Positions 29,341 through 62,734 of a stretch of 64,000 bases of DNA are shown here, piece by piece. The notes below the pieces were generated by a model. That model did no database searches. It was not told the origin of the DNA and saw only the letters and a list, made by a program, of their open reading frames with translations. The translations under genes and the position numbers were made by a program. Within the stretch, counting starts at the first letter, position 1. Each line of letters starts with the position of its first letter. The stretch is from Bacteroidota bacterium (GTDB taxonomy: Bacteria > Bacteroidota > Bacteroidia > Bacteroidales > FEN-979), in the NCBI GenBank assembly GCA_026391805.1, contig JAPLDJ010000012.1:197268-261267 (forward strand). The letters run 5' to 3'.

Positions 29341-29553
29341 GGACTGAGATCAGAGGTCAGAGGTCAGAGGTCAGAAAATGGAGGATGGAGGATAGAGAAG
29401 GGTATTTCCCGTTATAATTACTTATGACTTATTACATATGACTTATGTCGTATGACATCTGACATCTGACATCTGACATCTGACATCTGACATCCGACAT
29501 CCGACATCCGACCTCCGACCTCTGACTTCGTTTTCTTTTTTACCTTTGTCGTG
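29341..29553. repeat. Heptamer arrays (AGAGGTC and GACATCT types)
   Basis: Three units of AGAGGTC (about 29355-29375) and two of GGAGGAT are followed, after a gap, by GACATCT repeated five times, GACATCC three times and single GACCTCC, GACCTCT and GACTTCG units (29454-29530). A TACCTTTG box (29541-29548) only five bases before the next start codon could be a promoter -7 element giving a leaderless message. No gene is present. Confidence 0.8.
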
Positions 29554-56985: not shown

Positions 56986-57333
56986 TTAATCCTTCACTGC
57001 TTCCACCACGGCCTTAAAGGCTTCGGGATGGTTCATGGCGAGGTCCGCCAGGGTTTTCCGGTTGAGGCCGATATTCTTTTCGAGGAGTTTTCCCATGAAG
57101 ACCGAATAGGACATCCCGTGCTCACGTACACCTGCATTGATGCGGGTGATCCATAATCCACGGAAGTTCCTTTTCTTGGTCCTTCTGTCGCGGTAGGCGT
57201 AGGTTAATCCTTTTTCGAGGGAATTTTTGGCGACGGTCAGAACGTTTTTCCTCCGACCGAACTGCCCTTTTGTCTGCTTGAGCAGCTTCTTCCTTCTTGC
57301 TCTTGAAGCTACTGCATTTACTGATCTTGGCAT
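56986..57333 (-). CDS. rplT: 50S ribosomal protein L20
   Basis: 115 residues, full length ([16 protein letters not shown] to VEAVKD). L20 binds 23S rRNA early in large-subunit assembly. It is the last gene of the thrS-infC-rpmI-rplT operon, the conserved bacterial order. Confidence 0.97.
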
Positions 57334-57403: not shown

Positions 57404-57598
57404 TTACTTCTGGATCATCACTCTCACATTGGCCTCATCGGCTTTATCTACCAGTGTGGAATAAGTAAGATTACGCTTCCGCTTGGTTGATTTCTTCGTC
57501 AGGATGTGGCTTTTGTAAGCATGCTTCCGTTTGATCTTTCCGGTGCCGGTAACGTCAAATCTTTTTTTGGCGCCGGATTTCGATTTCATTTTTGGCAT
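57404..57598 (-). CDS. rpmI: 50S ribosomal protein L35
   Basis: 64 residues, starting [14 protein letters not shown], with the family's basic core [20 protein letters not shown]. Located between infC and rplT as usual. The gap to rplT is 70 bases. Confidence 0.97.
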
Positions 57599-57623
57599 TT
57601 TTTTTCTATTTGTGATTTAAGGT

Positions 57624-57641
57624 TTACGATTTACGATTTTA
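57624..57641. repeat. TTTACGA heptamer repeat between infC and rpmI
   Basis: Two and a half units of TTTACGA, the same unit as in the larger array at 58256-58294 and, inverted, upstream of mutL. Confidence 0.6.
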
Positions 57642-57646
57642 TTTTT

Positions 57647-57675
57647 CGCCAGGCGCTTTGCGCTAAGCGCTATTT
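57647..57675. repeat. GCGC palindromic element overlapping a stop codon, copy 2
   Basis: CGCCAGGCGC, three bases, GCGC, three bases, GCGCTATTT, the plan seen at 12634-12662. The infC stop codon TAG lies inside, at 57670-57672 on the minus strand. Confidence 0.65.
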
Positions 57676-58239
57676 CTTGGGAGCAATTATCATGATCATC
57701 CGCTTCCCCTCCAGCCTCGGCATTTGTTCGATCTTGCCATACTCCACGATGTTCTGGGCGAATTTCAGCAGGATCAGTTCGCCCTGTTCCTTGTAGATGA
57801 TCGACCGTCCTTTAAAGAACACATCCACCTTTACCTTGGCGCCGTCTTTCAGAAACTTGATGGCATGATTCAGCTTGAAATTGAAATCATGGTCATCGGT
57901 ATTCGGTCCAAGGCGGATCTCCTTTACAATGATCTTGGCGGTTTTCGCCTTCATCTCTTTCTGTTTCCGCTTCAGTTCATAAAGGAACTTTTTATAGTCG
58001 ATCACTTTACAAACCGGGGGATTGGCCGTCGGGGAAATCTCTACCAGGTCAAGACCAAGGTTTTCAGCCATGATCAATGCTTCCCGCAGGTTATAGATAC
58101 CCGGTTCGACATTTTCACCCACGACGCGAACGACGGTGGCTTTGATATTCTGGTTGATTTTGTGCGGATCTTCCTTCTTCTGAAAGGGCCGGCGACCTCC
58201 TCCAAACCTGTTGCTACTGGTGTTGTACGGTATTGCTAT
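57670..58239 (-). CDS. infC: Translation initiation factor IF-3, likely ATA start
   Basis: 189 residues if begun at ATA 58239. The conserved IF-3 N-domain start ([20 protein letters not shown]) lies upstream of the first canonical start codon (GTG 58122), so that codon is too late. Between the in-frame stop TAA (58243-58245) and GTG 58122 there is no ATG, GTG, TTG or CTG. The ATA at 58237-58239 follows an AGGAGG with eight bases between, an ideal spacing. The C-domain ([30 protein letters not shown]) is intact. IF-3 rejects non-canonical starts, so such a start allows self-control, as shown for the AUU of E. coli infC. Confidence 0.9.
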
Positions 58240-58247
58240 GGGTTAGT

Positions 58248-58253
58248 CCTCCT
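58248..58253 (-). promoter_or_regulatory. Strong Shine-Dalgarno of infC
   Basis: AGGAGG on the minus strand, eight bases before the proposed ATA start. Shine-Dalgarno sequences are generally rare in Bacteroidota, which makes this one notable and supports the start. Confidence 0.75.
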
Positions 58254-58255
58254 AT

Positions 58256-58294
58256 TATTTACGATTTACGATTTACGATTTACGATTTACGATT
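58256..58294. repeat. TTTACGA heptamer array between thrS and infC
   Basis: Five tandem units of ACGATTT/TTTACGA lie between the thrS stop and the infC Shine-Dalgarno, inside the operon. Confidence 0.8.
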
Positions 58295-58321
58295 TTCAAA
58301 TTACAAACTACAAACTACTAA

Positions 58322-60268
58322 TTACTCATAGAGCTCTCCGAGTTCGTTCTCAACTGTATCGCGAAGAAATTTTGCAAACTCTTCCAGCTTTTGCGGACCC
58401 AGATCGCCCTGACCATGTTTCCTCACAGAAACGGTTCCCTCCTGTTCTTCACGCTCTCCCACAACGAGCATATAAGGAATCTTGGCCAGTTCTGCATCCC
58501 GGATTTTCTTGCCGGCTTTTTCGTTCCGGTCGTCAATCCGGGCGCGAATATCGGAATTATTCAGGAATTGTAAAACTTTTTCTGCATAATTCTGATATTT
58601 TTCACTGATTGGCAATATGATAGCCTGATCAGGAGTAAGCCACAGCGGGAACTGTCCGGCTGTATGCTCGATGAGCACGGCAACGAACCGTTCCATCGAT
58701 CCGAAGGGTGCGCGGTGGATCATCACCGGGCGGTGCTTCTGATTGTCGCTTCCGATGTATTCCAGTTCGAAGCGGTCGGGAAGGTTATAATCCACCTGGA
58801 TGGTCCCCAGCTGCCATTTTCTGCCAAGGGCATCCTTCACCATGAAATCCATCTTCGGGCCGTAAAACGCAGCTTCCCCGGGCACAACCACATAATTGAG
58901 CTTGCGCTCCTCGGCCACTTCCAGGATGGCCTGTTCAGCCTTGTCCCAGTTCTCATCGGTACCGATGTATTTCTCTTTGTTATTTTTATCGCGCAAGGAG
59001 ATCTGTGTGACGAAATCCTTGAAATCAAGTGCTTTGAAGATCAGCATCACGATGTCGATCACACCCTTGAACTCATCTTTTACCTGGTCGGGGGTGCAGA
59101 AGATGTGCGCATCATCCTGCGTAAACCCGCGCACCCGCGTGAGTCCGTGAAGCTCGCCGCTCTGTTCATAACGGTAAACCGTTCCGAACTCTGCAATCCT
59201 TATCGGAAGCTCCTTATAAGACCTCGGTTTGGAAGTATAGATCTCGCAATGATGCGGGCAATTCATCGGCTTCAGGAAAAATTCCTCTCCCGGAACCGGC
59301 GTGGTGATCGGCCGGAAGGAGCTTTCACCATATTTCTGGTAATGACCGGAAGTCTTGTACAACTCCACATTGCCGATATGAGGACAGATCACCTGCTGGT
59401 AACCCGCTTTCTTCTGAACCTTTTTCAGGAACATTTCAAGGCGTTCCCGGAGCTCGGCTCCTTTCGGGAGCCACAACGGCAGCCCCGCACCCACTTTCTG
59501 GGAAAATGTAAACAATTCCAGTTCCTTCCCGATCTTCCGGTGGTCGCGCTTCTTTGCTTCCTCCAGCAGGAAAAGGTAATCGGTCAGCTCTTTCTGTTTC
59601 GGGAAAGTGATGCCATAAATACGAGTCAACTGCTTGCGGGTTTCGTCTCCACGCCAGTAAGCACCGGCTGTATTCAGCAACTTGATGGCCTTGATCGTGG
59701 AAGTATCAGGCAGGTGCGGGCCACGGCAAAGATCCGTGAAATGGCCGGATTCATAAAAGGTGATCTGCCCGTCTTCGAGGTCCTGTAACAGTTCAACCTT
59801 GTATTCGTCTTTTTTATCCGTAAAATAGTTGATGGCTTCCGCCTTCGGTACTTCCTTCCTTACAAATGGCTGGCTTTCCTTTGCAAGTTCCAGCATTTTG
59901 TTTTCAATCTTTGGAAAATCATCCGAAGAGATGGAATTGTCGCCAAAATCGATATCGTAATAGAATCCGTTCTCGATGTGCGGACCGATGCCGAACTTCG
60001 CACCGGGATATAGCAATTCGATGGCTTCGGCCATGAGGTGAGCGGACGAATGCCAGAATGTGCCTTTGCCGTCTTCATCGTTCCATGTAAGCAGTTTCAC
60101 CGTTGCATCAGCATTGATCGGGCGTGTTGCATCCCATACCTCACCGCTGACAAGAACTGAAAGTACGTTTCGCGCAAGTCCTTCGCTGATGCTTTTAGCG
60201 ATTCCCATCCCGGTAATGCCTTCGGGGTATTGTCTTACAGAACCATCGGGTAGCGTTATGTTGATCAT
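58322..60268 (-). CDS. thrS: Threonyl-tRNA synthetase
   Basis: 648 residues, full length. An N-terminal TGS domain ([17 protein letters not shown]), the editing domain with [16 protein letters not shown], the catalytic core with the zinc-site [11 protein letters not shown] and [11 protein letters not shown], motif 3 [13 protein letters not shown], and the anticodon-binding domain at the C-terminus. It heads the thrS-infC-rpmI-rplT operon and has a clear promoter upstream. Confidence 0.98.
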
Positions 60269-60335: not shown

Positions 60336-60425
60336 AATACGTCATACGTCATAGGTCATACGTCATAGGTCATACGTCATAAGACATATCCAAAACGTAT
60401 GTCGTATGTCTTATGACTTATGACA
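60336..60425. repeat. ACGTCAT/AGGTCAT heptamer array
   Basis: About six units of ACGTCAT and AGGTCAT, followed by inverted TATGTCG and TATGACT words, so that the two halves can pair. It lies between the thrS promoter and the 3' end of the PorE-like gene; no gene is seen. Confidence 0.75.
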
Positions 60426-62405: not shown

Positions 62406-62734
62406 CGGTTCTGATGCTGGATGCTGGATGCTGGATTAAAATTACCTATAATCTATGTTTTTTCACGTATCATGTTTTCCATTTTCCATTCTCCACTTTC
62501 CTTTTTCTTTTATTCGCCACAGATTTCACACCTGCCTGCCTGCCTCGCCGGCAGGCGGGCCGCAGGCAGGGATTTCACAGATTGCACAGATTAAGGCACA
62601 GATTAATATTTTCCGAATTTGCGGTCAATCCACCTCATCCCCCGGCCCCTTCTCCTGAAGGAGAAGGGGAGTGCTTTTCGATTCTCCATCCTCCATTCTC
62701 CGTCTTCCGATCTCAGACCTCCGATTCACAGAAG
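62406..62734. repeat. Repeat-filled gap: GATGCTG heptamers, R1 fragment and hairpin
   Basis: Three GATGCTG units (62412-62434) lie next to the PorE-like gene start. An inverted R1 fragment (62517-62608) holds CACAGATT words and an expanded GC palindrome of CCTGCCTGC words (62532-62572). A perfect hairpin CCCCTTCTCCT-GA-AGGAGAAGGGG (62646-62669) has the same CT-NN-AG core as those near 50.7-51.1 kb. Heptamer-like TCCGATC and CTCCATT words follow to 62728. No gene is present. Confidence 0.7.

Follow-up and report, generated by a model that had tools for sequence, protein, structure and literature searches.

Putative AUA initiation behind a conserved Shine-Dalgarno sequence at infC in a Bacteroidales genome

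The infC gene of this Bacteroidales genome raises the question of how translation of initiation factor IF3 begins where the reading frame offers none of the usual start codons, and why a strong Shine-Dalgarno sequence (SD) stands before it when SDs are scarcely used elsewhere in the genome. The gene lies in the window, the 64,000-nucleotide stretch of DNA that was analysed. Read along the minus strand, thrS is followed by a short gap containing heptamer repeats and then by AGGAGG, the spacer ACTAACCC, ATA, the infC frame, rpmI and rplT (Table 1), where the three neighbours are presumed from their translations to be the genes so named. The infC product was identified as IF3 by a PF05198 match of 93.4 bits (cut-off 26.9). 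A sequence-only reading had described an infC without a canonical start, and its coordinates and reading of the locus proved correct. Base-by-base inspection found no ATG, GTG, TTG or CTG in frame between the TAA and GTG 58122; AGGAGG does lie eight bases before ATA, and the conserved IF3 N-terminus, which had been said to be encoded upstream of the GTG, begins at this ATA. CCC is the sole codon between TAA and ATA, and ATA is followed by GCA ATA CCG TAC AAC (AIPYN). Because the TAA sits two codons before ATA, the start must lie either shortly after this stop or deep within the gene; the first ATG of any frame past ATA is at +127.

Table 1. Features of the infC locus, in coordinates of the window.
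Feature	Position	Strand	Remarks
infC (IF3) CDS, ATA to stop	57670..58239	minus	189 codons + stop
infC stop codon	57672-57670	minus	
Inferred ATA start of infC	58237..58239	minus	second codon GCA; homologous ATA/ATT/ATC in relatives
Shine-Dalgarno AGGAGG	58248..58253	minus	8-nt spacer to ATA; 6 contiguous bp with anti-SD
In-frame TAA, upstream bound of infC start	58243..58245	minus	
GTG, first usual in-frame start codon of infC	58120..58122	minus	at +117
Heptamer tandem repeat in thrS-infC gap	58257..58295	minus	close upstream of SD
thrS, upstream gene	58322..60268	minus	named by translation
rpmI (L35), control gene	57404..57598	minus	ATG start; named by translation
rplT (L20), control gene	56986..57333	minus	ATG start; named by translation

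Conservation of this arrangement was assessed with two rules. The SD-aware rule accepts an in-frame ATA, ATT or ATC (ATH) 4–11 nt after an SD match of at least 5, with shuffled leaders as the expectation; the SD-blind rule calls the start without regard to the SD, and a match of at least 5 is then sought at −20 to −4. A GCA after ATA is partly built into start-calling rule 1. PF05198 matches were obtained in 92 of 100 genomes, including the genome studied here. Its own family is represented by 43 genomes, 6 of which had no PF05198 match and one of which (G024) had a match at a contig end that was not fetched; with L039 (cut at a contig end) and L049 (a duplicate of L029) left out, 35 loci were read. 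All 35 have ATH after an SD by the SD-aware rule (1.8 in shuffles). The SD-blind rule found an SD in 32 of the 35 and called 33 ATA and 2 ATT, both ATT calls (L052 and L058) being misplacements that, like those at L008 and L017, were recognised by reading. The other loci of the order numbered 58 from 55 genomes, reduced to 55 when L001 (contig end), L077 and L081 (second IF3-like copies) were dropped. Of these, 42 pass the SD-aware rule (3.2 in shuffles), and the SD-blind calls are 45 ATH (38 with an SD), 7 ATG and 1 GTG, with two loci left uncalled. Two IF3-like matches each were seen in G068, G076 and G094 (loci L077, L081 and L001/L091); some of the matches are on short contigs, which might be foreign.

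Over the whole order set (n = 92), the SD-blind starts are ATA 71, ATG 7, ATT 6, ATC 5 and GTG 1, with two uncalled. An SD match of at least 5 precedes 65 of the 71 ATA starts, 4/5 ATC and 2/6 ATT, and none of the ATG (0/7) or GTG (0/1) starts; a mock window at −45 to −29 contains one in 2 of 82 ATH loci. The spacing is 7 or 8 nt in 53 of the 65 SD-bearing ATA loci. Putative initiation at ATA, with an SD before it that is conspicuous at infC, is well supported by conservation.

The survey was extended to a named set, consisting of the best 80 of at least 588 named loci, and to a phylum set of 90 loci from a search that matched 146 of 148 genomes. The pooled records number 265, of which 263 could be anchored (all except L125 and L257); without 3 at contig ends and 1 duplicate, 259 remain. 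In 188 of these 259 Bacteroidota infC loci, no ATG, GTG or TTG occurs between the in-frame stop and the position five codons before the IN..I motif. SD-blind starts in the named set (n = 79, from the best 80 of at least 588) are ATA 69, ATC 5 and ATG 3, with two uncalled, and an SD match of at least 5 was found at 20/69, 5/5 and 0/3 of them, respectively. The phylum set (n = 88), for which start-calling rules 4 and 5 are guesses to a greater degree than elsewhere, gave ATC 27, ATA 23, ATG 15, ATT 10, TTG 7 and GTG 1, with five uncalled; SD matches precede 12/27 ATC, 4/23 ATA, 4/10 ATT, 1/7 TTG, 0/1 GTG and 0/15 ATG. The SD-aware rule is passed by 30 of 79 loci in the named set (best 80 of at least 588; 4.0 in shuffles) and by 24 of 88 in the phylum set (3.9 in shuffles). 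ATA is thus the commonest called infC start in both the order set (71/92) and the named set (69/79, among the best 80 of at least 588); at L120, L129, L158, L160 and L171 two ATA codons lie near each other, and it is unsure which one is used. Several loci of the phylum set, including L178, L180, L189, L198 and L202, have an ATC or ATT start behind GAGAGG. Across the order, named and phylum sets, no ATG-called infC has an SD match of at least 5 (0/25), one of these calls being doubtful (L021, which has ATC 7 nt after AAAGGAGG).

Within the named set (best 80 of at least 588), 49 loci have ATA without an SD. By their titles, 45 belong to Flavobacteriaceae or Flavobacteriales, with a presumed placement of the genera, and 4 are given only as Bacteroidia or Bacteroidetes. 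The SD is thus not the only way to use AUA at infC. Because these 49 loci, mostly of Flavobacteriaceae, keep ATA without it, the SD seems not to be required for AUA initiation in the phylum. The comparison of Bacteroidota upstream regions that the sequence-only reading had proposed upholds a conserved ATH and SD within the own family (35/35) and in most other loci of the order (42/55), and not phylum-wide. A universal Bacteroidota rule of ATA plus SD was rejected, as ATA and AGGAGG occur together only in part of the phylum.

A FastTree tree of 247 IF3 rows (the 259 loci less 9 uncalled, L077, L081 and one short row) requires 13 changes for the non-AUG start and 29 for the SD. In 11 independent pairs differing in SD, the non-AUG state on average agreed in direction in 2.5 and ran counter in 0.0 (median p 0.5); in 6 independent pairs differing in the non-AUG state, the SD followed in 2.9 and opposed in 0.0 (median p 0.25). 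The link of SD with non-AUG start, corrected for kinship by independent pairs on this tree, is not significant. Coupling of the two is not claimed as proven because too few pairs differ, although almost none go in the opposite direction.

The prominence of the infC SD was evaluated against other starts in the same genome, sampled over 464 kb (the window plus 400 kb of further stretches, one overlapping the window by about 2.7 kb). Among 269 open reading frames of at least 200 residues, an SD match of at least 5 was found at 12 starts, compared with 13 mock windows, and one of at least 6 at −20 to −4 at 8 starts and in 5 mock windows. SD use at the other sampled starts of this genome is therefore at background level. 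A few of the 8 starts with a match of at least 6 may be real; a good SD precedes ATG at L272:15884, L282:15206 and L284:15536, genes that were possibly acquired. The two strands of the 464 kb together contain 238 copies of AGGAGG, from which it would be expected by chance within a given window of six spacings at about 0.15% of places. The SD at infC is thus above the genome background.

The neighbouring genes served as a second control and were counted where the locus reached them; in the named set they were divided into an SD-less group of 52 (the 49 SD-less ATA loci and three ATG-called Bacteroidales-type loci) and the rest. An SD match of at least 6 precedes rpmI in 3/39 loci of the order set, 2/52 of the SD-less named group, 2/28 of the rest of the named set (both from the best 80 of at least 588) and 7/32 of the phylum set; the corresponding values for rplT are 0/30, 1/52, 3/28 and 13/29. 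With a match of at least 5, the counts reach 23/29 for rplT of the phylum set and, in the SD-less group drawn from the best 80 of at least 588 named loci, 18/52 for rpmI. The contrast between infC and its neighbours is therefore clean in the order set and not in the more distant classes.

Leaders without an SD often carry the element GTTTAAYTAAAA, counted as GTTTAAY. Among the best 80 of at least 588 named loci, it occurs in the last 60 nt before ATA in 41 of the 49 SD-less ATA loci, and 27 of these 41 have it at −22. Its carriers are found among loci L114–L174, about 22 nt upstream of the infC ATA. Mock windows further upstream contain it in 1 of 196 cases, a lenient control because many of these windows probably lie inside thrS. 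In the SD-less group of 52 named loci (from the best 80 of at least 588), it precedes rpmI in none and rplT in one. Elsewhere GTTTAAY precedes infC in 7/25 SD-bearing named loci (best 80 of at least 588), 11/45 of the order, 13/60 of the phylum and 0/35 of the own family; it is therefore not part of the infC leader in the window.

Candidate RNA features of this leader were also considered. A structured infC leader was rejected, as its fold is equalled or bettered by 197 of 200 shuffles (z +1.88). A known RNA family at this leader was likewise rejected: the four Rfam matches with E up to 1 are to families of microRNAs and snoRNAs, all score below the gathering thresholds, and none covers the infC start. 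Period 7 is the commonest among tandem repeats of the 464 kb sample (40 of 77 non-overlapping arrays with at least 3 copies and a period up to 40), with examples in the window at 58257-58295, 57614-57639, 60337-60381, 29453-29526, 2860-2931 and 62413-62436. The heptamer units mostly differ between places in the genome, and the genus relatives L031 and L033 have different heptamers in the same thrS-infC gap.

On the side of the ribosome, 16S rRNA matches were found in 12 of 61 genomes searched, and 12 loci were fetched. The tail is ACCTCCTTTCT, with an intact anti-SD, in all 8 of these relatives' loci that reach the 3' end; the assembly of the genome studied here gave no 16S match.

Self-control of E. 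coli infC through its AUU start is established, and papers by Butler in 1986 and 1987 are said to treat it. The present locus has the same anatomy as infC of E. coli and S. aureus, and IF3 feedback is therefore the likeliest function here. The explanation that is probably correct, and the likeliest of those considered, is that infC starts at AUA and limits its own expression, with the SD compensating for a poor codon. In this proposal, which we infer from the arrangement of the sequence, infC would be translated from the AUA codon at 58239. Because IF3 destabilises initiation complexes on non-AUG codons, abundant IF3 would repress its own synthesis, a negative feedback like that of the E. coli AUU start. 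The parallel with E. coli is a reasonable one, drawn by analogy. AGGAGG may have been retained because the start codon is poor and, in a genome otherwise hardly using SDs, extra positioning would be needed; SD and AUA together would form a weak but controllable start. Lineages called ATG at infC would lack IF3 control.

Two alternatives would dispose of the AUA start itself. If IF3 began at GTG 58122 or another internal site, with the upstream stretch as an untranslated leader, a usual start codon would be supplied; however, the first 39 codons would be lost, among them the conserved IN..I motif; its I, N and I do not vary across an alignment of 13 sequences, of which three begin with ATG. The upstream stretch also diverges mostly at third positions: in 30 aligned N-terminal codons, differences from three genus relatives at positions 1/2/3 are 6/5/19, 5/7/14 and 5/5/18. 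Since, in addition, the GTG has no SD core at −20 to −4, an internal start was rejected as highly improbable. The chance that a read or assembly error destroyed an ATG is close to negligible. The genome is a 28-contig assembly, but other assemblies share ATA at the homologous codon, for example Winogradskyella echinorum KCTC 22026, and an error or misassembly at the infC start was rejected on that ground.

Two other alternatives accept AUA and differ as to the SD. In one, infC would be served, by virtue of its SD, by ribosomes whose anti-SD is free, for instance those lacking bS21, so that IF3 would follow 30S assembly or bS21 supply as rpsU does in F. johnsoniae, with AUA as a second, independent input. 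PMC9976891 describes Bacteroidia ribosomes in which the anti-SD is hidden by bS21, bS18 and bS6, with Tyr54 of bS21 redirecting the 16S tail; the single bS21 match in the present genome also has Tyr at residue 54, and SD use elsewhere in this genome is at background. In the same work, truncation of bS21 increased the signal of an F. johnsoniae tuf reporter carrying AGGAGGU more than 2-fold (PMC9976891). Against this, infC pairs with the anti-SD over 6 contiguous bp, short of the 9–13 bp of rpsU, and an extended SD is called necessary for stimulation by bS21-depleted ribosomes in the discussion; SDs are also reported for rpsR and further ribosomal genes in some Bacteroidia orders, with rpsU set apart (PMC9976891), and rpsU and rpsR of the present genome have no SD core at −20 to −4. 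Such dependence on bS21 appears doubtful. Distinctly less probable is that the SD is left over from an ancestor and has ceased to be read, AUA initiation depending instead on a leader that is A-rich and free of structure, as it does for other genes of the phylum. Flavobacteriaceae-type loci do manage without an SD, the leader folds no better than its shuffles, and F. johnsoniae ribosomes generally do not recognise SDs, only rpsU having an obvious one (PMC9976891). Nevertheless, the SD and its spacing, mostly 7 or 8 nt, persist between families, while in the order set most rpmI and rplT genes have no SD.

Self-limiting AUA initiation assisted by the SD thus remains preferred. As a speculative extension, unlikely as it stands, Bacteroidales-type bacteria might possess a two-input switch in which AUA senses IF3 and the SD, which ordinary ribosomes could not read because their anti-SD is hidden, senses ribosomes with a free anti-SD, the Flavobacteriaceae having replaced the SD input with the leader element near −22. 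If true, the amount of IF3 made would follow the supply of 30S subunits that are immature or lack bS21.

Bacteroidota keep the anti-SD in 16S rRNA though most mRNAs ignore it, rpsU and some other ribosomal genes being reported exceptions (PMC9976891). With a conserved SD, infC would join them as a translation gene that does not encode a ribosomal protein, and it offers a direct test of the purpose of the SD. When restricted to ATG, GTG and TTG, a scan puts infC at GTG 58122, and SD surveys based on called starts could therefore miss its SD. The SD-less ATA loci of Flavobacteriaceae raise the question of how AUA is chosen without SD pairing. Full-text searches, with subscription papers mostly outside their reach and thus weak as evidence of absence, found no report of a conserved SD or ATA at Bacteroidota infC; the word infC does not occur in PMC8710568, PMC6847099 or PMC9976891.

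Non-AUG starts of infC are already known in several phyla, and a 2020 arXiv paper by Gvozdjak and Samanta reportedly counts infC among the genes preferring them. To have called the arrangement remarkable was accordingly somewhat too strong, ATA being the commonest call in the order and named sets and its pairing with AGGAGG being confined to part of the phylum. PMC1805508 gives AUU as the infC start in E. coli and B. subtilis, with a strong SD in E. coli; the likeness is an IF3 gene with an isoleucine start codon, whereas here the codon is AUA, SD use is at background, the anti-SD of the phylum is reportedly hidden and the feedback would be predicted by analogy. Closest in sequence features is S. 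aureus infC, with the same AUA codon and a predicted extended SD. Its start was observed by retapamulin ribosome density, and the gene is expected to self-regulate; in poor medium, reporters with three further non-canonical S. aureus starts reached about 10% of the signal obtained with AUG (PMC13009471). However, S. aureus relies on SDs generally, whereas the present SD stands out against an SD-less background. F. johnsoniae rpsU likewise functions in translation and has retained a strong SD although its Bacteroidota genome makes little use of SDs (PMC9976891), but infC differs from it in pairing over 6 rather than 9–13 bp, in its putative AUA start, in its product, IF3, and in that Flavobacteriaceae-type infC itself lacks an SD.
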